Shown here: positions 20,542 to 56,300 of the stretch, in pieces
How the letters are laid out: the number at the start of each line of letters is the position of its first letter
Position numbering within the stretch: the first letter of the stretch is position 1
NCBI RefSeq assembly: GCF_032854445.1
Contig: NC_088300.1
Coordinates: forward strand, 61,354,984-61,418,983
From: Liolophura sinensis
Lineage: Eukaryota > Mollusca > Polyplacophora > Chitonida > Chitonidae
Reading direction: 5' to 3'
Length of the DNA stretch: 64,000 nucleotides
Position numbers and translations under genes: made by a program
Notes under the pieces: generated by a model
The model's database searches: none
What the model saw: only the letters and a program-made list of their open reading frames with translations
What the model was told of the DNA's origin: nothing

Positions 20542-23500
20542 TCAAGACACAACTCTTTCTTCTGGTGTGCTATCCTGCGAAGTTTCGTAGCTACCACTGA
20601 TTCGTAATGAATGTCGTCGTAATCGTTCGTGAGCTTGACGTCTGAGAGCCGTGTTAAGACGCGATGCCCCCCACATCCAAACTCTTTCTGGTATCAAGGC
20701 AGAGAACCAAGACTGAAAAGAAGGAATATATTCTTAAACTGGCATCAAACTGGCATCAATCTGGCATCAATTCAAAGACATAAGTTATGTGTGTGTTGAG
20801 AAGCAGAGGTGGCTATTTCACACTCAGGGTTTAAATCCCCATCATACACCCTTCTCAACAGGTGGATAACGATTTTATCTCTACAATATTTATCAAATAG
20901 CAAGCCAGTTTTCAGTATATGTAAAGATGAACTAAGAACACTCATGCAAGCTTTGTCGACTGCAAACAGTGCTGGAATAGTTGTTTGACGTCACAATGAC
21001 ATGTCATGAAATGCAGCATCACAAAAAAAAAATGACATCAGCCTGCACAGTAATTTAGCCGCGCAGGTATAAATTTAGGCCTGTCTGGGACTATTTATAC
21101 CCTCAAGCCTACATGTATTTAGCCTATTATGCTTAAGATATTTCTGTACAAAAATTACCTGCTATCTAAAAAAACGAATCAAAACACAACTCAAAAAACT
21201 AGAAAACATGATAACTTTGCTTCTTTAAGTTTTTAACTGTGTTTCGACCACATGTAAATCTGCAGTAGGAGTAGAAACCTAAACTTGCACATTAGGTTAA
21301 TCAGTTCAATTGCTGCTTCCTACCTGTATGGTGTGAGGCCAATATCCAGTCGTTCTGTTGGAGTAGCCTAAGGTGGAGACAGCATGTTGAGCATACACTG
21401 TGGCGGAGGGAATAAACAGGCCAGACTTGGACAGGGTCTTGCTGAATTGCGTCATTCTTGTGGCAACGTAGAAGGGCAGCAATGACTGAACCACAATGCC
21501 TTTGTCCTTGTATTCATATCCAATGGCTCGTGCAAAGTAATCCAGATAGCTCTTTGAAAATAAAAATATAGCAATACATGTATTAATTGGCATTTTTTTT
21601 AAAACAAGCATTTGGTATAAACAATAACCTACACTGTATTTCACCTAAAAATCCATCAAAAATGTACATCTTTACAGGTAAATGAAGGTCATGTAAGTTC
21701 CCTTCAGCCATGTCAAAAACTGAAATATAATAGTGCCAGAAATGAATATATAACTGACCTTTGTAGCAGCATAAGCTGTCATCTGAGGAGTAATTTGGGA
21801 ACAGGCACCTGATGATACTATAACAATTGCTCCTCTTCTCCTGAGTGAGAGCAAACATAAATTAATAAATAAATATAAAGCACAAATTCACAATACATGT
21901 AGCCGTGACATTCCCTGTATAGAATTTTGTACGGTCATGCACTCAGGCAAATGCTCAAAGCTATGATGCCAAAAATGTGACTGACCGACCTATCAGTTTA
22001 CAGAGCTGCTAAGTCACAGGAAAAAAGATCTACTTTCTGTGCTTAGCTGATTCTTTCGCTAATTCTTCAGCCGTTGTGCAACCAATATTTTAAAACGTTC
22101 TGAGAGAAATATTGGGTGTAGAGAAATAATTTGCACAGTTTCAGGAAGCTTTCATCTGCAGTGACACTAATAAATCATTTTAGCCTCATTTTCATAATAA
22201 TAGCATGCATGAATTCCAGTCCTTTGAAAGGGTTGAATCTTTACAGTAAGTCTTGAGAAGCCCCTACTCTCAATATCTTGACATCAGTCATTGAAATCTG
22301 GGACCCACCTGGAATAGTCCTCTTTGGTGTTTCTCTTGCTGCTGGTTTCTATCTACCACCCATTGTTTTGGTTGTGTTAAAAGATCAATTAATGAATGCA
22401 TGAATGTGTTTGGTTTTCATTCGTAATTTGAGTACAGAATGTGGCCCAACATGTAAAAGTACAAAAAAGCTTCTCAGCTTTCTTCTTGCAGTGTAAAAAT
22501 TGCTTTAAACTACACTGTACAGTTTTCCTAAAGCCCCAGCAGTCAGTCTTGAAAGTCAGTAGCCTGCCATGGTGACGTTACTGGTAATAGTTGTCAGAAC
22601 AATTTTGCCTGGAGTGAGAGCCAAATTAGAGGTGCTAAGCTGGTGCCACGTTCCCAGAACCACAAAACAGGAATCAAGCAAGTGCTTTGATTTATTTATT
22701 GATTTGATTGATGTCTTACGCTGTATTCAAGAATATTCCATTACACAACGGCGGCCAGCATTTTGGTGGGAGGAAACCAGGCAGAACCTGGGGTGGGGGG
22801 GGGGAGGCTCAAAGTGACCACATTGGTGAGAGGCTCCTGGGTCATAGCACCACGTGGCGTGCTAACACCCTCAGTCACAGAGGCCCTCCAAGTACTTCTA
22901 AAATACAAAGCTAGTGCTGTAGTATGTCATGAAAGGAGCTGGTCTTGAACCCACCTTTTAACCATTTGCGGGAGAATCATATGTGTCATCTGGAATGACA
23001 GAAAAGCAATGGACATCATCAGGTTTCACATACATCAAGGACTATCGGCATTTAAATCTATGCAATCACAGAAAGAGAATTTCTCATCCAAAGCACATTA
23101 TTACAGCAATATGATCAAATCTAAAAATTTATGCAAGGGAAAAAGAGATAATACATATATTGTACTGATAATTATTTATTTAGCAGATTGCTGTTTAATG
23201 CCATACATAATACTCAAAAATTTTTCACTCGTACAGTGGTAGTCAGTGTAATGCCTGTGTAATACACCAGCTTTTGGAGAGTCATTCATAAACTTTCCAT
23301 AGTGCAATACTGGTGAAAGACAAGTGGTCTGCACACAAAGTCGAAGGAGAGTTGAGACCACTTATTGTCAATAAGGCCTCACAAACAATGATAGTAGGGG
23401 AATATACACATTCCCTGTCCATGGCTGGGTTGAATATATTGTATTGATGACAAAGGTCCACATTAAAATGCATTTACATACACATGTAACTCACCATCGT

Positions 23501-26500
23501 TGCAGCAGCTACATTGACGTTTACAAGCTGCCATAATCTCTGGGAAAGAAAGTCAAGTAACAATTTATATTTGTATCACAGAACAATTTATTTACAGTTG
23601 TTTGTATTTTGTGCGCAGGAACATCTTCACATGTAGAATTTAAAGGAGTTAACACTTGTTTGATGATTAGACATCTAAAAATGTAGAAGAAATGCATATC
23701 TGTAGATGCAACTTTTAAGGGGACTATGAAGAAAATGATTTTCAAGGACTTGATGTTCTATGTTTTTTAGCTCTTTTCCAGGACATTCCGTTTAGGCAGA
23801 AATTCTCATGTGGAGATTTATGGATATTATTTTGGCACCTTATTTATCAGTTTATTTATTTATTTGATTGGTTTTACGCCGTACTCAAGAATATTTCACT
23901 TATTCGACAGCAGTCAGCATTATGGTGGGTGGAAACTGGGCAGAGCCTGCAGGAAATCCATGACCATCTGCAGGTTGCTGGCAGACCTTGCCACGTACGG
24001 CTGGAGAGGAAGCCAGCACGAGCTGGACTTCACAGCGACTGCATTGGTGAGAGACTTCTGGGTCATTACGCTGCGCTAACCAACTGAGTCACAGAGGCCC
24101 CCCCCCCCCACACCATTATTTATCAGTTCATTTGGAAAATAAAATATGGTATTCAGCATTCCACAATAAAGTACTTTAAAAGAATTATTCCAGAAAAAAA
24201 CTCCTTTCAAGGACATTTTTCAGAGATTTCAATGGATCAGTGGGAACATGGCTCATCGGCGTGTAATAAAAAGTTGTAGCTAATTTGAAAATGTTGTGGT
24301 TGTGCTTACCCGTTCAGGTACATCAAGGAACATCTGAGGGTAATCATACATCACACCCACATTATTTACTGAAAGCAAATGAAAACTTTGAAGTTATTTC
24401 ACATAAGTCACAATACAAGGTTTTCTTTAGGTCGAAAAGAGTGCATTAGGTATTACAAAACTGGAAATCTGCAGCTACTGTCCTTAAGAACAATGTCGAA
24501 GTAGACAAAACTATTACAGGTAGTTTACACATACATGTATACATACATTAACACAATAAAAAAACAAATTTTAATTTGGTAGATGAACATAATTTCTTCA
24601 GGAATGACAAGAAATAAATCGTGTCATTTTACAATGGGTTATCCACAGCTGAATTTGGGATTTTCATATGTATATACCCAAAATTCCTATCTCTTTGCCT
24701 TTGATGGCATCTCGGATCCTGTCATACACATCTCTTCCAGCATTGAAGTCGACTGTCACAGCAATTGTTTCCACTCGATACCTTTCCCCTATTCAAGCAA
24801 AAAAACATTCAATCTTAAAACTAATACGTAAACAGTCTGTAAAAATCTGTCAAACAGTCCAAATCATACATAAATGTAACACACTCAATTGCCTCCTTAA
24901 AGTTCACACTGAATGAAATCTGGTAATAAAAATAGGAGATCTAAAATTAGTCAAATGAGAAGTGTATGTATTCCCCACAAGTAAGCCACCCAATACAAAA
25001 AAAAAATGACATGATTTCAAGAGGCTATAATGATCAAATTATACGACATTTGTTCATTCAAAGACAGATACATGTCAGCAGACATCTGAAAGTCTCAACT
25101 TTATGTAGATTAGGCCTAAAATAACAGCACAATTTTTTTTCTACTGGCAATATATCTATTTAATATACTCATTTTACTGTATGTTTTTTGAGGCATCTCT
25201 ATAAATTTTACCTCTGTAAAAGAAAGAGCTCATATTGCTATCTAATATGGAATCATAATATGATGTGCAATGTGGATTTTTTCAAACAAATTCATTACCA
25301 TTTTGCTATTATTCATTGGGCATTGGCAAGGTTGAAATATTCAGTTACACTATGGCAAAATTTCATTCTTTGCAGGCGATCAAGTAAGTCATGCATCTGC
25401 TAGTATACATATTTGTCAAAGTTTCTTACGTATTTCTTCGGCTGCACGGCTGAGCCGATTCTCTCCTTTACTTATTAGAATGATATTTAACCCTTTGCTT
25501 GCAAGTTCCTGAGCATATGCTCTGCCAATCCCTTCACTGCTTCCAGTCACAACTGAAAGAAGCAAAAACACAAGTAGTTTAATACAACAGTTTAAAATGT
25601 TAATATCCAGCATCACATTTCCAGATTTGCAATTAACACAGTAGAGTTGAATTTTGGTATGTGTATTAGAAGTAACAAAATGGTAATAATTACATTGGAC
25701 TCATTAAACTGGTTTAATAATTTACGTTTGCTATGATGCATGCAATTATTTTCTTTCAGGGGTATGACCAAATGTTATGGTATGAACTAGGAGACAATAT
25801 ATTTTGAGTAACCTGATACTTGTTTAACTAGCTACTGTGGAGGAACATAACTGATGGCTACAATTTTACGCTACCACCCTGGTTGACCAGATATCATGAC
25901 ATTTAATCAGAATGCTTCAATGGCTTATTAAAAGTGTGTGTGTGTGTGTGAAGGGGGGGGGGGGGGGGAGGGGGTCATCACTAAGCAATCAGTAAATCCC
26001 TGATAAAAGCATGTCTTAATTCAATTTGTGTCAGAGACTTCAAAGAAACAGGTTAATTAGCTCATGGAGGTAGAATAGTGTGAGTGAATGAGTGCTTGGG
26101 GTTTAGCATTGTCCTTATCAATTTTTTAATTATATGACGACAAAGGAGTCAGAGTGCATGTAATTTGCCTCCTAGGACGGCGTAAAACACCAATCAAAAA
26201 AAAAAAAAAAAAAAATTTGCCTCCTTGTTGCAGGATGGATTTCTACCGCTCTTTTATCTAGTGCTGCTTCAAAGGCAAGCAAGCTGCCCCGTTATAGTTA
26301 TACGAGGCAACCAGTCATTCCACTATCCTCTTCACGCTGAACGCCAAGCAAGGTCTTAGGTGTGACCCAACCCAGAGTTGATCCTGGATCAAATGCCTCC
26401 CGAAGCGGACGCTCCACCAACTTTGCTATTGAGACTGGTAGGTACAACAGATTAGAATATATTTGTTCTACCCCTATGTTTTACATGCAGTTAAAGTTAA

Positions 26501-27889
26501 ATGTTAATTCAGCAAGCTAAATGATCTCCCTACTTATTTAAAGGGACATACCGCCAGCGTTGAAAAATTGCACTGTTATTTTAGACGTCATCTACATGAA
26601 GCTTCCAGATATGATGTCTAATGACAAGTATCCGACTTTAAATGAACAATATTCAGTTTTATCCAGGATTTCCCATCGACCATAAAGTCACTCAAGCCTC
26701 TGTATTTAGAAAGCATGTTTTTTTGAGTCAGTTACCTCCCCTTGTCTTCATGATGGAAAATGTTCAGCTGACTTGAATGTCAAACAAAGTATTCTGTTGT
26801 AATTACGTGGTCTACTGTGTAACTTTAGTTCTACCGTACAGATCATTGGCAATTACAAATACTTTGTAAAACTTTATCGATGGAAAGGAAGATCACATTT
26901 GGTTTACTAGGCTTATAATTTGCTTTCAATCTATCATATTGTCTATATGTGCGATCCACGAGCAAACATTGCATTGTGAGAATCTTTGCCCTGTCTCTTT
27001 TGCATGTTATCTCATTGAGCAGACAGTTTAGACCAGTGACTGATTTCCCCTTGTAATTCTCTTAATTGACATTTTTTGGAAAATATAGGCCCACAAGGTT
27101 TAGTTAGGAGTGAGTGATTGGGGTTTAACGTCGTACTCAACAATTTTTCAGTCATATGACGACCGGTTTAGTTAGGATTCAAAGGCAACTCATTTCTGTA
27201 TTTAGCTGAACCAACTAAAAAATTCTGAATTTCTTTTGGTGGTATGTCCCTTTAGCATTCTGACATTTATCTTGTTGGTCGACCGACTGAGCGAATGTCA
27301 GAAATATAAAATATGGAGGTAGTACATTTAACGTTGTAATAAGCTAAATGTATGCTTGGATTTGCAGTACCAGTAAAGTGAGGTTGTATCCAACAGTCCT
27401 CCTCCTTCCTTCCACTTTAAGCTTTTGTTCACTATAATCATCAAAGGCAACTAGTGTGGGTGCGATTTCATGTACAATGACCATGGGAATCACCTGTCTG
27501 TAAATATGTTCAGTATATACAATAACACTTACACGGTCACTTTTCAAGGGCATAACACAACCATCAGACGTTATAATTTTCCCCTAAAATAGGTACATCA
27601 CGATTTCTTGAACTGCTTAAATGACTGTACTTGTTGCCCTTATTTTGACATTTCTGGGAAATTTACTCAGTTTACCTGCCCAAGGTCCGAAACGCCGACT
27701 CAGGTCTCGATAAACACCTAGCTGTTTAGCAATACACGCCGTAAAAAAGTCAACAGTATAAAATGTTAGATCGATTGTTTTTTTAACAACGTAAAGGGCT
27801 CCTACGACTGCCAGAGTATCTCTTCCTGATGACAAGTGACAAGAGATTTCTTTGACCAGGAACTCGAACCTGTCGATTGCTGCAGCCAT
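20542..27889 (-). CDS. HSDL1: Hydroxysteroid dehydrogenase-like protein 1 (HSDL1), nine exons
   Basis: HSDL1 is a short-chain dehydrogenase/reductase related to the HSD17B3/B12 branch. Exons on the minus strand: 27676-27889, 25430-25552, 24678-24788, 24310-24368, 23495-23539, 22955-22989, 21759-21840, 21324-21551 and 20542-20712. They total 1068 nt, or 355 residues plus stop, all in phase. Seen: the cofactor loop TGSSEGIG (about 74-81), NIILISK, NNVG (151-154), catalytic Ser in VSSGA (205-206), YAATK (Tyr219, Lys223), and then [11 protein letters not shown] and [18 protein letters not shown], which is typical of HSDL1. The start [11 protein letters not shown] matches the family N-terminus. 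The catalytic Tyr is present, whereas vertebrate HSDL1 is described as having Phe there. The C-terminal exon is basic ([11 protein letters not shown]). Confidence 0.95.
22689..22888 (-). mobile_element. SINE-1 copy with internal deletion
   Basis: Tail gatttgattgatgtcttacg, body cagcattttggtgggaggaa, a G-run, and then head-side sequence cattggtgagaggctcctgg. The middle (the gttgctggcagacc part) is deleted. It lies in HSDL1 intron 6. Confidence 0.8.
22955..22989 (-). CDS. HSDL1: HSDL1 35-nt microexon (exon 6)
   Basis: The microexon encodes [11 protein letters not shown] plus two bases of an Arg codon, between acceptor tgtcattccag and donor AAAAG|GTGGGT. It supplies the segment that aligns with the family's conserved LPGM stretch (Q replaces G here). 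Its length of 35 nt is exactly what is needed to restore the frame between exons 5 and 7. Confidence 0.9.
23172..23445 (-). mobile_element. SINE-3-like copy
   Basis: Read on the minus strand it carries caacccagccatggacaggg, a motif also found near 40330 and 59610, and a tail resembling tgagtattatgtatggcatt. The family shares the attcttgagtacggcat type of 3' end with SINE-1. It lies in HSDL1 intron 5. Confidence 0.5.
23853..24115 (-). mobile_element. Full-length SINE-1 with 13-bp target-site duplication
   Basis: TTATTTATCAGTT flanks the element at 23840-23852 and 24116-24128. Tail gattggttttacgccgtact; body gcattatggtgggtggaaac; head ending gagtcacagaggcccc followed by a C-run. It lies in HSDL1 intron 4. 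Confidence 0.9.
25936..25975. repeat. (TG)n and poly-G low-complexity tract
   Basis: A run of TG repeats is followed by a long G run broken by one A. It is a simple repeat in HSDL1 intron 1, and its length is likely to be unreliable in assemblies. Confidence 0.85.
26077..26436 (-). mobile_element. SINE-2 copy carrying a 40-bp SINE-1 insertion
   Basis: It reads from the tail (gagtgcttggggtttagcat, tatatgacgacaaaggagtc) to a tRNA-like head that in sense orientation contains cttcgggaggcatttgatcc. A related copy in the opposite orientation is at 35213-35545. A micro-insertion at 26174-26213 interrupts it. Confidence 0.75.
26174..26213 (+). mobile_element. Extremely 5'-truncated SINE-1 insertion (40 bp)
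   Basis: Only the last bases of SINE-1 (aggacggcgtaaaacaccaa) plus a poly-A run are present. They are flanked by the 12-bp duplication AATTTGCCTCCT at 26162-26173 and 26214-26225. Retrotransposition, rather than decay, explains the small size. Confidence 0.85.
26503..27340. mobile_element. Hairpin MITE (second copy) split by a 712-bp element
   Basis: The two halves (gttaattcagcaagctaaat ... ctacttattta, and agcattctgacatttatctt ... ggaggtagtacatttaacgt) match the 7741-7860 element. The break corresponds to its middle. Confidence 0.75.
26541..27252. mobile_element. 712-bp TIR element with TA target duplication
   Basis: It begins aagggacataccgcca and ends tggtggtatgtccctt, an inverted match of 15 of 16 bases. 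It is flanked by TA at 26539-26540 and 27253-27254. No transposase reading frame was seen. A SINE-2 tail fragment (about 27104-27164) is nested inside. A TA-specific (Tc1/mariner-type) non-autonomous element is likely but not proven. Confidence 0.8.
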
Positions 27890-29028: not shown

Positions 29029-29183
29029 ATGGGGCGCAGAAAAAACAAATGGTCGGCGAGATTGTGGAGTGTCATTGCGTCTGTAGCCACCCTTTTCATA
29101 GCAAAATCGGGTGTGTCAAGCACTGCAACAACAACATCTGCGGAAAATGTGAAAACACCATGCAAAATCCCGCAAGATTATTC
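29029..29183 (+). CDS. EIF2AK3: PERK exon 1: signal peptide
   Basis: The exon opens [20 protein letters not shown], giving a basic n-region and a hydrophobic core. A small-residue cleavage region (GVSSTA) and a Thr-rich luminal start follow. Donor TATTC|GTGAGT. It joins exon 2 ([10 protein letters not shown]) in phase. Confidence 0.88.
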
Positions 29184-32100
29184 GTGAGTCATGTTTCTTT
29201 ATCTGTTTATCTGAAGATGTTGCATACAGCACAACAGTATAAGTCAAGCTGACACGATACATGTGATGACATTATTATGATGTTAATTATAAAATTAATC
29301 TGTAGCTAACGTTCTCACGAGTCTAATCTGACACTCAAGTGTCATAGCATGATTGACAGCCAGCGAGAGCGTCGGGGTAGAGTGACAGGTGTTACGGATG
29401 CGTCATGAATGTGTAGTGTATACAATCACAGCTTGTGACAGCGTGTGTTTCAGACAGTGCAACAGTAGCCATCGTCTTGTCTGATCATAGTCAAGAGATC
29501 TCACAACTGGACATTTGATAGAGTGTCTCTGACTCATGCCTCAGACGATTTACTGATCATAATTTCCTTCTTGCAGACATGTATCACTTATGATATCTAA
29601 GGAATACATGCAAAAATCTGTTTCTGCCCTAAAGTCAAATCGTCTTTTTTTCTGACCGGTATGTAAGCCAATTAGTATGTATGCTTTATAGCTTGTTGTA
29701 ATTACCAGTTTATGTTGTCAAGCATTCTTCCAAATGCACATAATCTCCCAGTATTCCATACTGTAATATATTCATTTAGTTTGCAATTTATCATGACAGC
29801 TGTGCTTAATAGATTGACTCCATTTCTTCTATAATGTCTTTAACCTGCAAGACCATTTTTCTGTGCTCTGAGACACTTATAGTAATAGTTTGCATTATTG
29901 TTTTTATGTAACGGTAGCTCAAACCCCATTTATTGTGTTACGAGAATGTGTAACAGTAAATCAGCATTGTGAAGTGAAATTTAGACCAACATGCCAACAT
30001 TGCCATCAAATTATTACTTTCAGGTTTATTCTTAACAGACATTGTAAGTGTAAGAAGAAAACTGGTACAGCCTGAATAAAGTAAAGTAACTTAGGTGCTA
30101 CATGAAAATTAGATTACGTACAGTTTCTGTATATGCACTTACATGGGACGAGAGTGGAGGCTCTAACAAAAGAATTTCTTTCTGTGCTGTTGGCTGATGA
30201 GTTTGTTAATTTTCTGTAGAAACCTGATGCTTGTGAGCACGCTAGATGGTAAGATGTCTGCCCTGGATCTAAATCAGAAGGGGTCGATGGCCTGGAGCAT
30301 TAACACTGGCAGTCAGCCTCTTCTTTCCTCCAGTATCAGTAAACTTGGGGTAAGCCTAACTCTGTAAGAATCCTACATGAAATGTATAAAAATCAACAGA
30401 AACATCATAGCCAAAATGTTATTATTTTGTTTGTTAGGCAACATATACATTACGACGTGACACGTATAGGATCTCCATCCTGTAGTGTTGTATACAGAGA
30501 TTAATTTTAAAACAGTGCTTCTTATTGTTTTTTACAGTGTCCTGTATATTTGTCCAAAGGGTATCCTCAAGTCAAATATTTAGAGCAGCTACATTGGCAG
30601 TGTAGATGTTAGTTTGACATAAATGCACATTTAAGCTGAGAATTATTTTCTCATGCACTATACCAAATTATTGGTAAATATTTTTCACCTGATTTTGTTG
30701 TAAAATGTTTGTAGATCATGAGAAATGGGGAGCGAACTCGGTTGATCCCATCATTGGATGGAGGCCTGTATCAATATAATGGAGAGAGTATTGAGGCTGT
30801 TCCTTTCACAGCTGAGACTTTGCTCAGTTCTTCTTTCAAGCTGAGCGAAAACACTGTTGTTGTTGGTGGAAAAGAACTCTGCACATATGGACTGGAAAAA
30901 CAAACAGGACAGGTGTGTACTCTGTGTCCTTAATGTGTATTTTTGTGTAAACAATGTGAAAAGTAAAAAAGAAAATCAAGGGATAGGTTACTTTAGATTT
31001 GTCCAAACTTAAATGTTATTTTGGATTATTGCGAGAGGATTTTTTGATGGTATTACATGTAGGTGTATGATAGCACAATCTATGAATAAGTTGGGGAGAT
31101 TTACCAGCTATTTTATTAGAAAAGAAATGTTCGTTTTTGTTTTTTTGTTTTACCATTAGTAACATAATTAGGACAGTCATTGCCTTCCCTCTTATATTAG
31201 GTATTATGTATTACTATCAAAATGAGATGGAAGTCTCTCAATCTTTTCCTTTCGTACATTGCCAGTGTGATATAAAACCTCAATCATTCATTCAAATAAA
31301 CTCAGTTAGCAGGAAAACTTCCTCTACCTCCATTTTAGTAGTTGTGGATTTTGTTCTTGTTTAATCAACTTTTTTTCAAATATTCATGCGAAATGATTTT
31401 CTGAAAACTCTGACATTATGTCATATTATGTTATAGTTTATAATAGGGGCAAATTTGGATGTTGCAACCTTCTTGCTCAACATATATAGGACAACATTAG
31501 TCTATGTACTATTTACAGACTAAGAATTTTTCTAGAAATGTGTTTGATATTTGTTGTGTGGGTGTTGAAGGTGTAGGGATATATTTTGGTTCCCATGAAT
31601 GCTTTCTCTCACTGTATGTTGCTGTGTGTTTGTCAGACTCGGTACAGGTGCACTGTACAAGGCTGTACCCTGGTGGGGAATAAGGAAGTCTCTGAGGAAG
31701 AGGATATTCTAATGATAACCAGGAACACTCACACTGTCAGAGCTGTGGACTCCCGGACTGGGGCAGAGAGGTGGGCGAAAGAAGCAATAGATTCATGATC
31801 ATAAATCTGATATAAATATCAAAACCAGTTTCCTATTTTTCTATTTTCATAGAAACAAAAAGAAGTAAAAAAAATAAAAAGCTCAGAGAACACCACAAAA
31901 ACTGTATTTTGATTTTAAATGACACCGTGCAGATATTCCCAAAAAGATCTGAGTTTTTTTTTAGAAACATAAGCAATAACTAACAGTCTGCTTCTAATCT
32001 ATCTCACTGTGAGCAACATGTCAAGATTTAGTTTGCTTATAAATATGATAAAATCTATGGCAGTAAGTAAATTTTCAGTATTCAGTCTGCTTCTAATCTA

Positions 32101-35100
32101 TCTCACTGTGAGCAACATGTCAAGATTTAGTTTGCTTATAAATATGATAAAATCTATGGCAGTAACTCAGTTTTCAGTATTCTCTATGTAACGTAAACCT
32201 GTGACACAAATACAAGTAAACTTGAGCATTGAAGTAGATATAGGGAAATAGAATTTGGAATAATTGCATGTACTTGTATGTACAATGAATTGCGTCTGTA
32301 GGTGGAATTTTAGCGTAGGCCAGCATGAAGTTCACCTGTTTGAAGGTGTGAAGAAGGTGATACAGACAGACACATCTGAGGAAGAAGATGATGATGGAAT
32401 CTCCATAGTGACATGTCAGCATTCAGGTAAGACATTGTCATTAATGATTGGGTTCAAATAGATAGAAGAACCAATTTGATTTGTGTGTTTTCTTCACTGG
32501 GTCTTCCGAGTTATACCACAAATTAATGGTGAACCTTTATGTAATTCACTAGTGTTTAAGGTACCTGAAAAGCCACGTGTCTAGCTTAAAGTTATGGCTA
32601 GCAGCAGGAGGGTTCAAGTCTGCAGTCGTAGTGGTTGTATACCTTAATTATTTTGAAAGTTATTTAACAGTCAAACTTTCATGTACCTCATTCCTTGTTT
32701 TGGAGGCTGTTCATGCCAATGTGCACAACTTCCACAAGTCCTGCTACATGAAGGTCTTGGAAATGTTCTACAAAAGATCCAAAAGATCAAGGATTCAGTC
32801 CACAAGATAAGGTGACATTACATTTGTGTAGATATCTGTTTTCAGCTCATTTTTATTTGTAATGATTACCTCAAATAAAATGCGTGAGCAATGCTTGAAC
32901 AAACACCTGTTGGTGTCATTTAAAGTAAAGAATTACAGATTGCTGCGGCAGACAAGCACATCTCTTAGATTGGCACTACTAAGAATCCCACCCTTCAATG
33001 CAAGCGTCACAAGTTATCCTTACCAAAAGAGACTGTTGATAAAGTCCAGTCATTCCTTGTGAAGAATGCTGTTCTGCTTCCATGCAGAAACGCCAAACTC
33101 TTCAGCTCAGCATCAATTGCTACATTGTACAAGCAGTTTAAAATTCAGCATCCTTCAACCTTTATTGCATGTACAATGTTCTATAGACTGCGGCCTCCAC
33201 ACGTGAAACTGATGAGTCTTTATACCAGTGTTTATGTCAGTATTACACAAACACCAACCTTAAAATCTTGGTCATAAATAGCCTGGTTGACAGTAACAAG
33301 GACAGTAATCAAGGACTATAGAATCAAAGACATTTACTAGGCTATAGAATGCAGTGTGGCCTAAGGAAGAAGGGAATAAGTTCTACAAGACGGGATTTAT
33401 TGACCATAGCTGTACCAAATGTTCTGATGATGGGATTAAAGACCTGATTGTTCAGTTGAGCTCAAATACCGAAATCTTTGGAAGGTATGGGTAACCTCGA
33501 AAGGTCCATTGAAACAATTAAGAAAATTGCTGTCCACCAAAATGGGGACTGTGTATACCCTTATCAAAGATTTGAGTAAGGAGGTTGTATTTTTAACTTG
33601 CCATCTTCACACTTGATCGTCGCAGCATAATCAATTCCAGAAGTTAAAGAACAACTTACGTGACGGATGGGTGATGGTGTTAGATTTTTTCTGCTATTGG
33701 TGTCCACAGAACGGATTTAACAAAGTAACTACAGAATCCATGGTTTTTCTTACTGCTGATCACAAACATGACCATCATTACTATTGTCTCCGGCCACACG
33801 TCTCCATGCAACCTGTGTATGGTCATGGATATCGCCTGGGCTCTGCCCGGTTTCCTCCCACCATAATGCTGGCTGCCGTCGTATAAGTGAAATATTACGG
33901 CGCAAAACATCAATCAAATAAATAAATAAATAAATAAATCAAGCTAAGAAGAATAGGTTCCCAGTTCCCTAAGCAAGCTTGCTGTAAGAGGCAACTAATT
34001 TAGACACAATGTGTTTCTTACCTGTTGAGTATTTTTGTATTGTGAGTTACATTGTTTTCACAGCAAAGTATGTGAAATATTGCTCATGCAGCAAAAAAAC
34101 ACCAATCAATCATTGAAAAGTATAACTGCCACGTTTATGGTTGTGACAGTACTGTGAGCTTCATGTATATTTGCTGAATATTGCTGGATGTGGCCGTAAA
34201 CACTAATCAGTCAAAATTTATGTTCTGTTATAGAACTTGGTGTCTCAGTTACACACGCGACTGTGGGAAAGAGATGGCTGTTAGATTGTATTAGAGAAAA
34301 ATACAATGAAGGAACTTTGCCTGCCCAATATTGAAAACACACTTGTTCCCTGATTAAAAATATTTTAAAGTTATTCATGGAATACTTCTCAAGAAGAAAG
34401 ATCATATAGTTTACCATGCATTTCATATTAGCTATTGCAGATTCTATAGAATTTCACACTTTCAAAACATAGGCTTTGAAGTTGCGCTAACTTGACTAAA
34501 GCATTCCATGGATTTACTCATTCCTGTGAGAAGAAAAGTGTTTACTTCACATCTGTCGTTTCTTGTTCTCCCTTTTTGTATGCATATTTGTGTCCATGTT
34601 ACACAAGCACCTGGTGTCTGGTCATGTATTTTTTCATATTTCACACACTCTTCATACTTGCGTCTTAGTTACACCCATTGTCAGTGCTATAAAACAGTAG
34701 GATTTTTGTTGGACTTCAACAAAGTGTAAATCCCCCCTTGTGTCACACATTGATTACCCCTTTTTGTGGGCTGACCCCAAGAACATTATTTGAAAAAAAA
34801 ACATTTTTTATTCTTTCAGCTTATAAAATAAAAACCTTAATTACATGTATGGTGTACTTGAAGAAATGTAAACATGGTTGCCACTTTTCGTACTTACCTG
34901 ATTGTGTTTCATAACAGGTGAGGAAGATCCACCAGTTCAGCAGACAGAATTTGAAGGAGTTCTGAAGGTGATAGTACCACGGGGCATGGTGGTGGCTGTC
35001 AGTAAAACTGATTCAGAGCAGGTCCTTTGGAAACGAGAGGTGAGGACCTGTAGATCTCTTGTGATGTGGTAGATAAGACCCTAAATCCTTCCAGTGAGGT

Positions 35101-38100
35101 ATTACTTTGGATGCACTTTGAAAACATTATTTATTAGATTTTCAGCACCGGAAAAGTATTGCGGGTTAATTATACAATAACCTGTCCAGATCAGGTAACA
35201 CACTTATAATAACACAGCTGGTAGAGCATCCGCTTCGCGGATGGGAGAACCAGGGTCAATTATGGGTCGGGTCACACCTAAGACCTTAAAAAAGAGGAAG
35301 TTGAGGATTCAGCATTAGTGCAATGGCTGGTTGACCAGTATCAGTATGATGGCTCGGGCGAGGCATCTTACTTGTCTTTGGTAAGTCGTCTCAGTGAGGC
35401 AGCACTGAATAAAAGAGAGTTGGAAATCTGTCCTGCAGCAAGCTGGCACATTACATACATTCTCCTTGTTGTCATATGATTGAAAAATTGTTAAGTACGA
35501 CATTAAACGCCAAGTACTCATTCACTCACTCACTCACTCATTCTCTCTAATGTGCCAAAACATGCACTGTGTGGGTGATCTCCCTGTTGTAAGAACAAGT
35601 AGATGATTTGCTGTACCTTGTACATGCAGAACACAAAATTATATTAGAAAAAACTCTTACCAGAATAACTTCTTGTCATTCATTCACAGTAGGTAACTTC
35701 TTGTCAGTCATTCACAGCAGGTACCCTGAATGACTTAAAAAAGAAAAGTGTTTTTTTAGAGGCAAAATAAATGTCGCAAAATATTATTTTTGGTGCTGAA
35801 ACTTACAATTTTCCAGTAGTATATCATTTCATGTTCCAAGAAAAACTCAAGATACAGTTCTAAACTCAAAAGAACTCTCAGAATCTGGAAAAAAATGGAC
35901 AAATTAGTGATGAACAAAATTTATGGTCATTTAGGATAGGTGTGTTTACCTTCTGAAATGTTCTTGGTTGCAGTTCCCCTCTCCCATTGCCAATGCCTGG
36001 ACAGTAAGCAAAGGGAAGTTGGAGCCGGTGAATCTGTTCAGTGAGCAAATCATCCCAGCTCTGACCGGATCTGCTGAATCAGAGACTGTTAACCTACCTC
36101 CTGAACCTCTGCTTTATGTGGGTACGTCATGCGCTATGAGTTTAGTTAGTGTCAGACTTTGTTTTTTGATAGTAAGCTGTCTCCTTCTTCAGATTTCTGT
36201 CAGAACCCTTATACACTTACACAAGGAGACACTATTGTGAACTTGCTGTAAATAATGTTAAATGTTGGGATGAATTCAGGTGTTAATGTACTAATGTGAC
36301 CACAGGTATCCACCAGGACCAGATGTATGTGCAGCCCTCAGTCAAGATGAAGGATATGGTATCCGAGGCATCGGCCGGATCATATCCGGGCAGGAATGGT
36401 AACAGTGATACTAACAGCGGTGTGGCGGTGCGTGTGCCCCGTGTCTCATGGAAGCCTTACCTGGCCACAGGTATTTAATGGAGAATGATATACCTAATAT
36501 CTTAGTATATGATAGTAGTGTGTTCAAATATTTGAATGTTAAATCTGTCATGTACAATATTTCATGAGATAAGATTATTGTTGATTGATCACATTTAATT
36601 GTTTTAATTGAGTTTCCATGAAGTTTTCACATTTATTTTAATGTGAAGGGACTACACAGGTGATTTTAAGAAAACAATCGATCAGCACACATCTATTCAA
36701 ATGTTTGCCATTATGTTGAAGTAGCCAAAGTAATTGCATTTCTCAAAATATCACCTTTATCTGTGCATGTTTTGCCATTCAAAATGGGTGATAAAGTTCC
36801 AAATGATTATAACTTTTTCAAACTTTAGAATCATTCTAACGCCGTATATGGTAAGTCTGGTATTCACTGAAAGGCAAGAATTTTAGCTGTTCTTGGTAAA
36901 TAGAGAAAATTTGATATGATCATCAGATAAGAAATTTGTGCCCAAAATCTCTAGTATAGCCTATTTAGCATTACGAGAAAGAGCTTTTAACATTGCATTC
37001 AGCAGTCGGGTGGAATGTATTGATCTTATTATATCATTACCAGCCCCATCACGAACACCAGCCCTGCGTGTAGGCTTTGAGCGGGCGAGCCTTCCTCTCC
37101 TTGGGGAAGAGGATTCTGTGATTGGCGAATCAGATTCCAGCGCTATGTCTGTGTGGCAGGATATGTACCCTTACGGTCAGTAAATTATTACCTTTACCTT
37201 AAGTATGATAATTTCTGCAATTATGTGTAATCACTCATGGACAAGGATGATGTGTGCTTGAAGTTGTCTTGAGGTCATCGCGGTAAGCTTGGCATCCATG
37301 TACATGAGAGCTCATGATGTGGCACAGCCCAACTCAAGTGATTGTGTGTAGTGGGCCCCAATGCTGATTGCCATATCAATGTAAGATTGACTGGCATACA
37401 TGTAACGACTTACATGAGCACAACTCCAATTTAGTTGTGTTTTTATTTCTCACGGGCACAAAGAACCAGACACAGCAGTCAACAAAGTTGAGTTGAGTTG
37501 TGTCTTAAGCCCCTGTGTATGACAAGCTTTGGTTGCTCATGATGACTAAACTTGACTGAATGCTCATGTTTCCTCTAACTGAAAATTGATGGCCTAATAT
37601 ACCCTAATTCCTCGACCTTTTCGCATGTGATAGAGCAACTTTTTATGCAGTTTATGCCCATTTTTAATTTGATTTTGGAGACAAAACTTCATGGGTCATA
37701 TTGGTCAATTTCAGGGCTTCACTAAAAGTATGATATTATCAGTCTTCACAGAATAATGTGTTCATAATATGCTTGAGTAAACACCTTGCAAATGTAAGGA
37801 AAGAGTGAAGAATTACAGTATGTCTGCTTTTGCGTTCTAATTCAGATGGTGGGTGTTACCTGTACCCAGACTTTACGCCTGTGTTACCACTAGAGGGAGC
37901 TGAAGATGCAGGCTTGCACAATAATGGTTCAGTGATGGATGAAGGCATGGATACCATTTCTGTGACACTATGGAATTGGTGGTAGGTGGAAGTTAGCTGC
38001 TTATCTTTAGAAAACTCCAACAAATGGGAGTAGCACTTGTCTCATTTGCCTCTTTGGAAACATGGGGAGGTCATGATCATCTAGAAATGCTGATGGCCCC

Positions 38101-41100
38101 ATCTTACATGACTGGTCAGGCTAGTGGATGACACTGATGTTTTTAAAAAATATGAAAATATTATATCAAATATGGTATTTTTTGGTGTTGAAACTTAAAT
38201 CTTTCCACTAGAATATCACCTGGCCTTCCAAACAAACCTTGAAACAACTTTGTAAAGTCAATAGAACTCTCAGAATCAGGAAAAATGAGTAAGTTAGTCA
38301 TGAACAAAATATTAGGTCATTTAGGGTAGCCATAAATACCACAGGTGTTTCATTTCGTCATTGACCTAGAGGTTCCTGTGTAACTGTATTATGGCAGCCT
38401 ACATTATCATCTGTAGAAGTTAGAGAATGGTTTAGCCAACTAAATGCCAATATGTTCAGTGTCATGAATATCTTGGAAACTTCATTTGTCCTGATATGAT
38501 GTGACCATAAACATTTAACATGAAATACATCAATGAATTCCTGAATTTGTCACAGCCCAACCTATGGGAGCTGCTTTAGAAAATTTCACCTTATCATACA
38601 GGGCATAATGAAAGCTTGAAATGTTTTTTTTAAAATCAGTGTCTTATTGATCGAATGATCGGTGTTTAAAACTGTACTGATTAAGTTTTCACCTGTATGA
38701 TGGCAATCAAATTTTTTGCTCATAGAGGTAACCAGAGTAAACCATAGACCTTTGCCATGTACCTGACAAACCGTCTGGCCTAAAGTCGCAGCTGAAACAG
38801 CAATTTGAACATGTGTGCTCTATGGTCAAAGGTCTGATAGTCACAGTAAGCCAGGTCTATGACCCTATCAAACAGGGCAAAATGATTAGTGTTTTGCATA
38901 TTAATCTGCATAATGCTATGCTTTAGCAGTTCTGTGTGAGCCATTTTCGGTTCCTCTTGATTCAGGAGAGAAGTGGTTGCCATCACTGTGGTGACAGCTG
39001 TAGTTGTTCACCTGCTTACCTACAAATACTCCCAGAGAGGTCTTACTCACCAAGTCTCCGTCTCAGATAGCCAGGTGAGTGCAGTTGAAATTAATAAATT
39101 TGTGATATAGATTTGTTCTTACATACTTTTACGCCTGATGTGGTCAGACATGGCTAATGAGTATTTCTTTTGAAAGGATTTCCTCATTGAAAAGAAAACT
39201 CTCTCATTGAGGAAGAGAGATCAGTTTTTCTACCTGTTTCTAAAGCAAGTAGTTTTGAAATACGTGCGAGTGCTTTTCTTTAAACTCGCTTCACAGTACA
39301 ATCAGTTGAACAGTTTGAAAGACTGTTGATCATATTGTCAATGTTTCTGATGTTGGATATATGATTTTGTAACAAGCGAAAGTTTATGCACTATCTTACG
39401 TTCTCCCCTCACCATCCCATGGATTAACAGATAGCTTGCTTTAGGCACTCTGGAATTTCATAGTTTCCTTTTTATGTTGCCAGGGCACGGACAAATCATC
39501 AGAGAGTAAGTCGGTTGACGATCAGTCAGCAAAGATGAAGGAGTTGGAGGATAAAAGTACGGAATATACTTCCAGGTGAGATTCTTGATGGATAAGTTTC
39601 TCATGTGTAATTTGATTACTGGGATCAGGTGATTGCAGTTTTAGATGTTCGACTACAATCCCTTTTTCCAATGACAGCTTTGTCTTCAACATGGAGTGGT
39701 ATATGGACAATAGAAAACTTATTAAACAGGAATAGATTAATCTTCGGGTTTCAGTAATTAAAAAAAATGCTCTGCCATTAGCTTTATCTGAACTTGCACA
39801 CTGCCATGTTTAACGATAAACTTTACACATTGTGTAAATTGACAGCGACACTTTATTGTCCTAATGGAGTAACTGGAAAAGTGCATATTTCATATTACTT
39901 GAAATTTCAAATTTGGGTTGAACAGTTTTAAATATCATAAAAACCATTAGAGATTTTACAACACTTTCATTTCATTAAAACTGCTACTAGTTTTCTATTT
40001 GATGTGAAGCTTAATGCTTAATTCTGTGCTGTAGGTATTACACAGACTTTGAACATGTTCGCTGTCTGGGTAAAGGCGGCTTCGGGATTGTGTTTGAGGC
40101 TATGAACAAGATGGATGAGTGCCCATATGCAGTGAAAAGAATTTCCCTTACTAATAGGTGAGTGATGAGGTTTTAATTTTGATCTGGTTATGAATGGTTT
40201 ATGGTTGTGTTTCATTTCAAGCTGATATTAATTCATGAAATGAGGGAGTCGTGGCTGGGTGGTGTATAGCATGTTTGGCTTTTAGTAGTTAGGACACAAG
40301 ATGTACTATATATGTATGGGTTGAATACCAGCCTTGGTAGGGGAATTGCCTTAGCATCAATGGACAGTCAGCAACACTCATTTACATGTACATTCGTTGA
40401 AGGACACTATGTACATGTACATATCTGTATGACACACGTAGGAACCTTTGCCAGTATAAACTGGCTGGTGCATTATCTTGGACATCAGTAGAGCTAACTG
40501 GTGTGGTATCAGTGAAAAATTCTTGAGTACGGCATTGTACACAGCTGTTATATATACCAGAAGATACATTACTCAGAATGCCTTCAACAGTATACCATAA
40601 ATCTTTAACTCACTACAGTACTCCTTCTAGTGTGAAGTCATGCAAAGAGTTTGTATTGTGTGCCATAAGGTAAATTTCCCACGTTTCAAAGGTATCAGCT
40701 GAACAACAAATTTATATGTAAATAAACTTTATTTAAAAGGGATGGCTGATCTTAGGTCAACAACTCAACAACTGGTATAAATTGTACTGCTGTACAAACA
40801 GCTAAGTCATGGTGAGCTGCTTTAAAACTATTATAAGGGATTATTACTGCACAAGCCTATGAAAGGGAAAATCTGTTGGACAAAAATGTGTCCATAGTAT
40901 CTGTGTATTTGTAGGCACAAAGATATGACATACATGCAGAGATACTATGGCACTTCTATAACAGTTATCAGTGCTTTATATTTACGTGTATTTGTGATTT
41001 TGAATTTATATTAAAACATTATGTCATGCATACAAGCACTTTAATACCCATGGGCCAAAGTTTATGCATTGAAAAAGTGTTACTTGAGAAAAAGATTCAT

Positions 41101-44100
41101 TTAGGCTTATTATTTGGTAAACTTCACTCATCTTGATATGGAAGCTCATTGGTCTACAGCATTGTTCTCGCTAAAGCTGGACAACTCCTGAACAATGAGG
41201 CCACAGGTTCAAGTCCAGCTCGTGATTTACACAAATATATAAATAAATGGGAATATAATAGGAAGCCTATCAAACATGAACATTGTTGGATAATATCTAA
41301 CTATGTTATGCCATCTCAGTGAAATATGATATTCCATGATGTGCCTGCAACTGTGCATGTTCACAACCTGGATAGCTATAGACCTTTGTATATTTCAGTG
41401 ACACAGCCAAAGAGAAGGTGATGAGAGAGGTGAAGGCATTGGCCAAGCTTGATCATGGAGGTATAGTGAGATATTACCAGGCCTGGTTAGAGTCTCCACC
41501 TATAGGCTGGCAGGAGAAGAGGGACAGAGCTATGGAGGACAGGTAAAATGTTTGCGGTGTAGGAGATGGTGCTGTGAGTGTATTCTCTGCTGATAATGTA
41601 AACATGTAATGGAGTGATGCATTTTTACATAAAGTATACACAATATCATCTTTCTCACGATAAAATTTTGACTGTTGATTCTGTGCTGTGGTGGTAAAAT
41701 TTCAGCCAGATTTGAACGTCTAGCTTCAAATGTTTTGTTCTCAAAAGAAGATCAAAGTTTAGGACTTTTACTTTGTGAAACCTAACCCAATACAGTGTAA
41801 ACTGAAGTTTTATGTCCATTTTTGTTGTTGCTTTCAGTGAGTGCCTGACTCCAACGCCGTGTAACTCTGGTAATGACCTTCATACAGATGTCTTTACTCC
41901 ACCTTATGTCAATCCATTCTCATCATGCAGTCCTTCACACAGGGTGGACATTTCCTCAGACGTCTCCACAACGCGCGAAAGTGAAAATGATAGTGAAGGA
42001 TTTGTTCCTAAAGTGAACTTCTCAGATGATGATGAAAGCGGGTCTTTCAGTCTGGGTATACCCACTCCAGTCAGACACACCCTTTGGTCTCATGATGACT
42101 CCATTGAAGTCGTGTTTTCGAACTCTACCCCAGGGGATACAGGAGACTCGGACATGGGTGCTGGTGATGGCATGAAGTTATTCCATCATCAGGAGGATAC
42201 AAATGACACCTGTAGTATTGTGTTTGAGGATTCAGGGTGTGGGGATGGACATCATGGGATAGACAAAGGCTCCAGTCTATTTAAGAACTGTACTAACAGT
42301 GACCAGAAACTGTCCTCTGCTGTGGTTTCCAGTCAGTCAGAGGATCTCCGTAATTCCAATCGAAATAAATCCAAGCATTTTGGTGCTCCTAGACTTTATC
42401 TGTTCATTCAGATGCAGCTGTGTCAAAGAGAGACACTCAAAGATTGGTTGATGGCAAACACTTTGAATCGTGACCGACACATGCTACTGGATATATTTGA
42501 CCAGATTGTTACTGCTGTGCAGTATGTACATGACTGTGGACTGATGCACAGAGATCTCAAGGTAACTGTTATAGGGTTATTCTTTCATTATGTCTATGTC
42601 GTTGTCAGTACACATGTAATAATTTGTTTGTTAGCCTGCACATTTCTTTTCAAAGGAGTTTTAAGTCCCATTAGACCATATTTAGATTATATTGTGTTCT
42701 TGCTTGACTTCATACATGCACTGTTGAGGCTGGCGCAGAATATTTGATGTCACCAGATGTAATATCTCCCACTTCAGACTTCTGTTGGTATCTCATTGGT
42801 CATATTTGACTCTGTGGGTTTTCTGTGTATTTGCATTCATGGTTTCTCTGCAAATTATTTGTCAGGAAAAGCCGTGTGTAGAAAAACACTCCTCTGAACT
42901 TAAGAGGGTGAATGATAAGAAATGTCTGAACACGGTCTTGTAGTACATCTCCATTTACGAGGAAAGGCTAATCTATGTTGCTGAATATAGGCTTGTGTGC
43001 GTATAAAAATTGCAGTAGTCTCAAGAGCAAAATGTCTGCATAGGGAAATTTTATGGAAATTCTGGCAACTGTTTTTCTTGAACTGATGTTAATAATCTAC
43101 AGTATTAAGGGACACATGCATATTATCTTTACATGCCACACAATGGTATTGTTTCATTACAAATGTTGCTTCTTACCTTTTAGTGAGAGCTTTGTCTTGG
43201 CTTGCATATTGTCTTAGTCCAGTATAAAAATACATTGAAAGTACTCAGCCAATCCCAGTGAGAGCTGGTAGATGTTATTCTACTAAAGCACTTCTATTGT
43301 TCTCGCCAGTTGATTTTTGACTCGAGTCTTACAAAGGTCTCAAAGTCAGCATTCTTGTTAGGTACAGTGTACGGGGGTGCTTTTCTGTGGCCTCATGCCT
43401 GCCCAGTTTCTTCAACTCATTAGTTAACATTAAAACCCAAGTCAGTCAAATTAACATTTCTACTTTTTTTGTTAAATGTTTAAGATTTTGTGTCATTAAT
43501 TTTTCTTGTAGCCATCTAACATATTTTTCTCAACGGATGGAGTGGTGAAGGTTGGTGATTTTGGTCTTGTTACCGCCCTGTCAGAGCAGGAAGACAGCAG
43601 TGAGCAGAGGTTGACCAGGCAGAAGTCTGGGGACAACCACACAGCTCAAGTCGGCACACATATCTACATGAGCCCAGAACAGGTGAGAGGGTACCAGGAA
43701 CATGTGGGAAACTTCATGTACTCTTCTTACATTCTTTTTAGAGCGTGGGAAATTTTCATACTCTGTGTCACATGGGGTGATGGTGCAATCCTCATCTTTG
43801 CTGTTCTTGGGGATTAGGTGACAGTAAGTGGTCGCAGTGTTTAGGTGGTGAATTGTCTTTAATGAAGCTCATCATAGATCACTTGCTTTGCACCAATATA
43901 GCAAACTCATGGTCACTGAGGTCATCCTGCAGATGGAAATCTGTGAGTCACAAGAGGGCAGTTAGATTTATGTCCAAGGCCAGTGGTTTACTCCGGCTCC
44001 TTAAATCCATAAAATTTTAGCTGCCACCCTAATAAGTGGAATATTTTTGAGTATGCAGGCATTAAATCTCAATGAAATATATAACTTTCAAATTAATTAT

Positions 44101-53195: not shown

Positions 53196-53390
53196 CTGTA
53201 GTTTATGTATTGAGCTGAAATTTTGCATTCATTTGCCTCCAATAGATGAGCTCTTTGGGAACCTTGCTACCAAGTGTAAGTTTGGAGGGTGGGTTGCGCC
53301 TAACAAACGTTTTTAATCTTGGCCTAACATGAAAATAACTCTTTTAAATGACTAAATACTTGTGTATTTTTTGTAGATTTTATTTTCAAA

Positions 53391-56300
53391 ATGGACAAGA
53401 GGGAATGTCTGCAACAACTGCTAACGAAGGGCAGACAGCGACTGTCAGAGTGTCACTTAAGGGCAAGGAAGCTTGATGGCCTAAAGGGCGTCCTATTCAT
53501 GAGGCGTGACAAAGCCTGTCAGGCAATGGAGAAACATCTGACACAGTTACAGGTCAGGCTTACTAACATCCTCGATGAGAGACTGGCTCAGATTGAGCAG
53601 CTGTGTGCAGAAAAGGAGATACACATCAGTTCTGAGAAAAGATGCGTGCTCGAGCAAATGTCTACCCTCACTCAAATCTGCAGCCGCTCGACGGATTTTC
53701 TGCAGTTTGGCAACGAGGAGCTGTGTAAAACCAAGGATTGTGAAGAGGTCATCCTCAGTTTTGAGAAGATTCTGAAAGAGCGCAGATGTCCATACATCGA
53801 GGAAAAACACATCAACTTGTCTTATGTTCCCTTACTTCTGAACGAAAGTGTGACCATGAGCAGTGTTGGGATGTTAATGACCTCCCATCTTGACCCTCAC
53901 TCTGTTGAAATTGAAAGATGTCGGGACAAACCAAGAGAGGTTAGTCTGTGTGCGAGTTTGGGACTGAGTCTTTTCATCAAAACAAATGCTAGCAGTCTGT
54001 CTACTGATGACCTTGAGCTTTTCCAGGTCAAGGTCACTGACAGTAAGAACATTATAAAGCCCATTACAGTGGCTGTTTGTTCAGATCAACCTAGCAAACT
54101 TCAGGTGACCTTCTCTCCAACCTTCCCAGAAGCCTATCTGCTCTCGGTGGTGTTGTATGACACCCATGTCATGAACAGCCCGTATAAATTCAATGTTCGG
54201 AGCAGTCCGAATAAAGTCAAGTGCGCTCCCAACAAATCGGAGTCTTCAGACTCTGGAAATCTTTCAATATCCCCTTCCCAGATGAGTTCAGATGGTGTAA
54301 GCAGTGGGAATTACTGGGAGTCCTGTAAAGCTGGCAACCTCTTGTGTAATCAAAGGCTGGAGTCTCTTGAACACCAAAATGTGGCAGCCAGTCAGAAGTC
54401 TGGACCAACTCACAAAGGTAGCAATGTGTATGTATCCACAGAGAAGCACCACAGTTACAAAAGTAATAATCTGCACCAGTGCCATGGAAGAGAGACAAAT
54501 CGGCCTAACTCTTCTCTAGTGAATAACTTAGAAAGCAGAGATAACATTCAGAGGTCATCCGCAAAATCACAAAGTGGCAACTGTACAGAGAAGGAACACA
54601 GTTACAGGAATAATGATCCACACCAATGCAGTGGAAGAGCAACCTGTGGACCCAACTCTCCTCCACTGAATGGCTTAGAAAGCAGAGGAAACAATGAGAG
54701 ATCATCTTTAAGGTCACAAAGTGGCAACTGCACAGAGAGGCAACAGGGCTACAAAAGTACTGATCCGCACCAGTTCAGTGAAAGAGCAATGAGTGGATCC
54801 AACTCTTCCCCACTGAATAACTTCGAATACAAAGAAAACCCTCAGACGTTATTCCCAAGGTCACAAAGTGGCAACTCCTGCAGTCAGGGCAATAATAGTG
54901 GGGTTACACGTCTGTCACAATCAAGATCTGCTCAAGCCAATGGTTTGTTTCACAGTAGTAACAGGGCTCAGAGGCTCTGTAGAAGATCATCACCCACAGT
55001 CTCTGAGGCTAACAAAGAAAGCAACAATAAAATAATTGGCCAGGCAGATTTAGCTCAAAGAAATATTGTCAGCAAAGCATTGGCAAATCAGGTACATTTG
55101 TCTTCAAGGACAAATAGTAGTTCACAGTGGCAACATAACAGGGCGGGGAACAGTTTGCCATCCAAACCGGAACATTCCCAGCAGACTGATAATCGAAGAG
55201 AAACCTCTAAACCATCAAGAGGTTATGGTGAATCTCCAAGCAGGGCACATCAAATGTCGCCAAGGTCAGGTTCAGTCATGTCAGTAGGCAGAAATGGCTC
55301 TGCCACTTGTCAAACGGGTCAAACTGCTCTAAGGTTTACCAATGGTTCTCCAGATGCTTACCAAAACAAAGCAGGGATCTGTAAGGTAGAGTCTAAATGT
55401 GAAGAGGCTCAGAGTTATAGCTCCAGTATGACAAGTTATGGCTCAGAGAAATACTCTCCAAATCGTGACAACCAATCAGAGCATTTAAGTTACCAACACA
55501 AGTCATTTCCTAACAACAGAGCAACAGTTCCAACTGCTGATTGCTTGTCTGTGAAGTCTGGAATCAGAAGAGAACTGTTTACCCAGAGAGCATCTCAGCC
55601 CAACAGTGACTTTATCAGTGGTAGGATGTGTCCAACTAATGATGAGGAATGTGCAGACGACAAGACTAGGCAGATTGGCTATGGGCTTTCGCCGAACAAT
55701 GTTGAGATGTCTGGTGGAAGAGCTCCTTTGGACAAAGATGAGATCAGTGGAAGAAACACACCAGGCAAAGTTCAGCAGAACAGCGGAAGAAAGTTTTCAG
55801 GCAGCTACAAGTATGAATCACCCAGTAGAAGACATTTCGCATTCAGCTCTGAGCAACCAAGTATGCCTGTAAAACATAGTCAGGTCAGATTTTACAAAAC
55901 TGATGAAAGAGATTCACAAGGCAATTCAGGCAACTTTATAGATGACAGTGGCCAAAATTTTACAGGCAACATTGAACGTGCAAGTTGCAGAAATGTTCGA
56001 GGCTACTTTGAGGATGACAATGGCCAAAATTCGGCTGTCAACATTGAACAGGCAACTTGCAGAATTGTTCAAGGCTACTTTGAGGATGACAGTGGCCAAA
56101 ATTCTGCTGGCAACATTGAACATTCAAGTTGCAGAAACAATCAAGAATACTTTGAGGATGACAGTGGCCAAAATATTGCTGGCAACATTGAACAGGCCAG
56201 TTGCAGAAATGTTCAAGGCTGCTTTGAGGATGACAGTGGCCAAAATTCTGCTGGCAACATTGAACAGGTAAGAAGTAGGAATTTCCAAGGCAACCTTGAT

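Follow-up and report, generated by a model that had tools for sequence, protein, structure and literature searches.

The window analysed here, the whole stretch of 64,000 nucleotides of Liolophura sinensis DNA presented above (contig NC_088300.1, positions 61,354,984 to 61,418,983), carries on its minus strand a gene assigned to HSDL1, which extends from 27889 to 20542 and, judging from its splice sites and reading frame, is made of nine coding exons that join into one open frame with a 355-residue product. Its introns are GT-AG throughout. An earlier note on this DNA had singled out 21759-21840 (minus strand) as encoding Ser, Tyr219 and Lys223 of a protein that also has TGSSEGIG and NNVG; this segment proved to be exactly one exon, preceded by the acceptor TCACTCAG and followed by the donor GTCAGTTA, and all the named elements were found, with residue numbers that are exact in the spliced protein. 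The coding exons are:

27676..27889, minus strand: HSDL1 exon 1, start codon and residues 1-71, with the N-terminal extension (splice model; aligns with the human HSDL1 N-terminus)
25430..25552, minus strand: HSDL1 exon 2, nucleotide-binding TGSSEGIG (74-81) and the coenzyme-specificity residue K100
24678..24788, minus strand: HSDL1 exon 3 (splice model)
24310..24368, minus strand: HSDL1 exon 4, NNVG (151-154)
23495..23539, minus strand: HSDL1 exon 5, catalytic Asn178 (NVN at 176-178)
22955..22989, minus strand: HSDL1 exon 6 (splice model)
21759..21840, minus strand: HSDL1 exon 7, catalytic Ser206, Tyr219 and Lys223 (VSSGA...TAYAATK)
21324..21551, minus strand: HSDL1 exon 8, SYLDYFARA...PFYVATRMT, in the HSDL1-specific C-terminal half
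20542..20712, minus strand: HSDL1 exon 9, stop codon and a tail of ~25 residues without counterpart in human HSDL1

A search of the same genome found no second copy of the gene, and HSDL1 (SDR12C3) is single-copy here. Its introns contain SINE-like repeats in the intervals 22700-22900 and 23880-24090 of the window (with sequences such as GGCCTCTGTGACT and AATAAATAAAT), which resemble mollusc SINE-like elements. The divergent neighbour of HSDL1 (29029-43814, plus strand) looks by eye like the eIF2-alpha kinase PERK (EIF2AK3): its first exon, near 29029, resembles a signal peptide, exons of luminal type follow near 30200-31780, and the kinase itself, recognized by Pfam (Pkinase), is encoded at 41806-42744 and 43512-43814. 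Farther along, 53352-56621 (plus strand) is one uninterrupted reading frame (1090 codons) that weakly matches the Filamin repeat, and within it ~55850-56339 consists of tandem 72-base repeats (24 residues, DDSGQNSAGNIEQASCRNVQGYFE-like) whose copies are 63-85% alike.

When aligned with outgroups, the chiton HSDL1 protein displays a complete classical SDR tetrad (N178, S206, Y219 and K223), in which Tyr219 is encoded by TAT and the vertebrate-type Phe replacement is absent, while TGSSEGIG at 74-81 corresponds to the classical-SDR cofactor motif TGxxxGxG. The Pfam adh_short profile matches with E = 3.2e-41 (141.4 bits against a cut-off of 26.6), and because this goes together with a full-length alignment to human HSDL1, the match is beyond chance. 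Residue 100 (codon 25467-25469, exon 2, minus strand), at the position of Arg80 in HSD17B3, is Lys, where almost all relatives sampled have Arg. Since Lys is still basic, a preference for NADP(H) is the expected reading, and the replacement could change the affinity for NADPH. No segment of the protein exceeds 1.5 on the Kyte-Doolittle scale in windows of 19, a profile that does not point to a membrane anchor. Human HSDL1 is a mitochondrial protein.

The identity of the gene was examined against human HSDL1, HSD17B12 and HSD17B3 and yeast IFA38, all in provisional sequences, of which the human ones were checked only for their lengths (330, 312 and 310) and for motif positions, including Phe218 of HSDL1 and Arg80 of HSD17B3. 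With these provisional human sequences, the alignment of the chiton protein with HSDL1 covers the full length at 50% identity (166/330), and the protein is 37% identical to HSD17B12 and 31% to HSD17B3. Columns that it has in common with one of the three alone number 54 for HSDL1, 17 for HSD17B12 and 9 for HSD17B3. Like human HSDL1, it has an N-terminal extension, the C-terminal signature blocks and the Asn, Ser and Lys of the tetrad, but it differs by Tyr219, Thr74 and Lys100 in place of human Phe218, Ser73 and Arg99, and by its ~25 extra C-terminal residues. HSD17B12 and HSD17B3 (SDR12C1 and SDR12C2) belong to the same SDR12C family and also have a complete tetrad and NNVG, but do not have the signature residues of HSDL1. 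Prokaryotic classical SDRs and FabG-type 3-oxoacyl reductases (PDB 5fyd and the haloarchaeal L028-L030) share the SDR core (chiton residues ~63-260) and the Tyr and Lys columns, but are a deep outgroup without the HSDL1-type N-terminal extension and with 32-33% identity at best (L028-L030). In a sequence search of the PDB, the best 60 matches included no HSDL1 entry, and the nearest were bacterial SDRs, which have their Tyr and Lys in the columns of Y219 and K223. Scans for animal HSDL1 elsewhere returned only prokaryotic SDRs from the genome collection and nothing from the viral one.

A grouping of this gene with HSD17B12 instead of HSDL1, which the earlier note had named as a possible refutation, is not borne out. 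In a maximum-likelihood tree, which contained one other HSDL1 and used the provisional human sequences, the chiton protein and human HSDL1 were joined with 100/100 support, and constraining it to group with HSD17B12 was rejected (p-AU 0.003, delta lnL 35.8). A separate HSD17B12 gene, with its own YSAAK, lies on the same contig ~17 Mb off (C6:43.95-43.97 Mb); its exons match HSD17B12 best, at 60-65% in several of them, and it is the sole other close gene in the genome. The tree, the signature residues and the outgroups support an assignment to HSDL1 and not to HSD17B12, and that we are dealing with an HSDL1 whose active site is intact seems almost certain. That we might have mistaken for HSDL1 a homologue of HSD17B12 (the very-long-chain 3-oxoacyl-CoA reductase) or HSD17B3, in which a Tyr would be trivially expected, is scarcely credible: common membership of SDR12C and the resemblance to HSD17B12 speak for it, but an HSD17B12 identity is ruled out by the tree and the genome's own HSD17B12, and the protein has the HSDL1-type N-terminus and the VSTLG-RTTGYW-IQ block.

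The column of residue 219 is occupied by Tyr in HSD17B12 (both human and the chiton's own), HSD17B3, IFA38 and prokaryotic classical SDRs, and by Phe in human HSDL1. The latter, again in its provisional version of 330 aa, reads FSASK at 218, in agreement with the Phe that the earlier note had cited. The same note had considered Tyr to be the ancestral state, a view that is supported because every sampled classical SDR outgroup has Tyr and a single change suffices to explain Phe, which is derived on the human HSDL1 branch. A comparison of motif and tetrad columns adds a second difference, because the Gly-rich motif is SGATDGIG in human HSDL1, while its Thr is kept in the chiton protein and in nearly all other rows. 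Human HSDL1 departs from the classical residues at two positions (Phe218 and Ser73), chiton HSDL1 at neither, and SGATDGIG is consistent with a loosening of catalytic constraint along the human lineage. The opposite polarity, i.e. a chiton Tyr that reverted from an ancestral HSDL1 already inactivated by Phe, appears very improbable: a single base separates the Tyr and Phe codons, and the comparison took in just two HSDL1 sequences, from chiton and human (the latter provisional), but this course of events needs two changes versus one, with classical SDR outgroups that all have Tyr, and Thr74 of the Gly-rich motif is likewise ancestral in the chiton and changed in human. The Phe of human HSDL1 is then a later derived loss. 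The claim that this loss occurred later in vertebrates holds in so far as it would postdate the split from the chiton lineage, whereas the sequences compared do not tell the deuterostome, chordate and vertebrate stems apart. If the earlier note is correct that zebrafish Hsdl1 also has Phe, the loss took place before the bony-vertebrate ancestor.

What these residues imply for function can be approached by analogy. The best overall explanation, and a very probable one, is that exon 7 belongs to an invertebrate HSDL1 that has kept the full set of classical SDR residues and is likely an NADPH-dependent ketoreductase. In the established SDR mechanism, Lys223 would lower the pKa of Tyr219, which would act as acid/base and protonate the carbonyl of a substrate that Ser206 holds in position, NADPH would give the hydride, and a proton relay would run through Lys and Asn. 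The substrate might be a hydrophobic ketone or a 3-oxoacyl-CoA, by extension from the sister enzymes HSD17B12 and HSD17B3. Activity, cofactor and substrate class are all inferred. Since the tetrad is complete and the cofactor motif present, it is reasonable to call the protein probably active, and we regard catalytic activity of chiton HSDL1 as likely.

Human and zebrafish HSDL1 were reportedly found to be inactive by Meier et al. in 2009. The earlier note had described both as inactive, and the support for this comes from the title of that report and from papers citing it. The strongest competing idea is that the chiton Tyr has been kept but merely tolerated, HSDL1 being a non-catalytic (scaffold or binding) protein in all animals. 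In favour of this, HSDL1 has been conserved in vertebrates despite its inactivity on the substrates tested, the only ones to which the word 'inactive' refers (PMC11209984), which makes a non-catalytic role probable, at least in vertebrates; K100 also deviates from the common Arg. Nevertheless, extending such a role to the chiton protein is unlikely, as the full tetrad and a canonical TGxxxGIG have been kept across a long divergence (as measured by the identity to human HSDL1) in which many other sites changed. The reading of chiton HSDL1 as an enzyme can be taken one step further. It is fairly likely that the bilaterian ancestor already possessed HSDL1 as an active reductase, that this lineage has retained it as such, that the vertebrate lineage made it a conserved pseudoenzyme by replacing Tyr with Phe (and Thr with Ser in the cofactor motif), and that the name 'inactive' which invertebrate orthologues bear in public annotation is therefore wrong.

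That an invertebrate orthologue has kept its Tyr is no surprise, because a 2022 survey already reports identical N-S-Y-K tetrads for invertebrate orthologues in SDR12C and other families, from which it infers that they arose before the vertebrates (PMC9859523). These orthologues were selected by a YxxxK requirement, so that the survey could not have seen losses, and its passages on SDR12C tetrads contain no discussion of the HSDL1 Phe. To have the Tyr is the default for an SDR, and chiton HSDL1 is the expected retained ancestral state. A literature search on mollusc HSDL1 or on the date of the Tyr-to-Phe change returned nothing useful. In the prawn Macrobrachium nipponense, RNAi of an HSDL1 lowered sperm numbers (PMC8494903), a phenotype for an invertebrate HSDL1 that does not itself bear on catalysis, and hemichordate and sea cucumber HSDL1 entries bear the label 'inactive' (PMC7838161), which should not be passed to invertebrate orthologues without a residue check. 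With its full active site, chiton HSDL1 is a natural comparator for dating the turn of HSDL1 into a pseudoenzyme; knowing its substrate would indicate which pathway gave rise to the vertebrate pseudoenzyme, and HSDL1 sequences from across the animals would reveal when the loss occurred.

Two further observations concern the material searched. The mitochondrial genome is present in the assembly (contigs C99 and C632; L086-L089) as ~15.5-kb units arranged head to tail, at least seven of them on C99, where they are probably an assembly concatemer; cox1, flanked by nad2 before and cox2 after (by eye), reads with AGA as Ser, ATA as Met and TGA as Trp, i.e. the invertebrate mitochondrial code, which excludes a vertebrate source. 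Finally, the acidobacterial sequence L032 that was included in the tree has no bearing on HSDL1 and is one of 41 prokaryotic SDR-like proteins that form a uniform group (L032, L034-L046 and similar ones), mostly from Acidobacteriota. In their catalytic columns Tyr is replaced by Ser and Lys by Arg, with LSNAVRAAVVG for YxxxK, and the first Thr of TGxxxGxG is mostly Ala, so that, as far as these columns go, the group is a widespread divergent set of SDRs without the classical active site.
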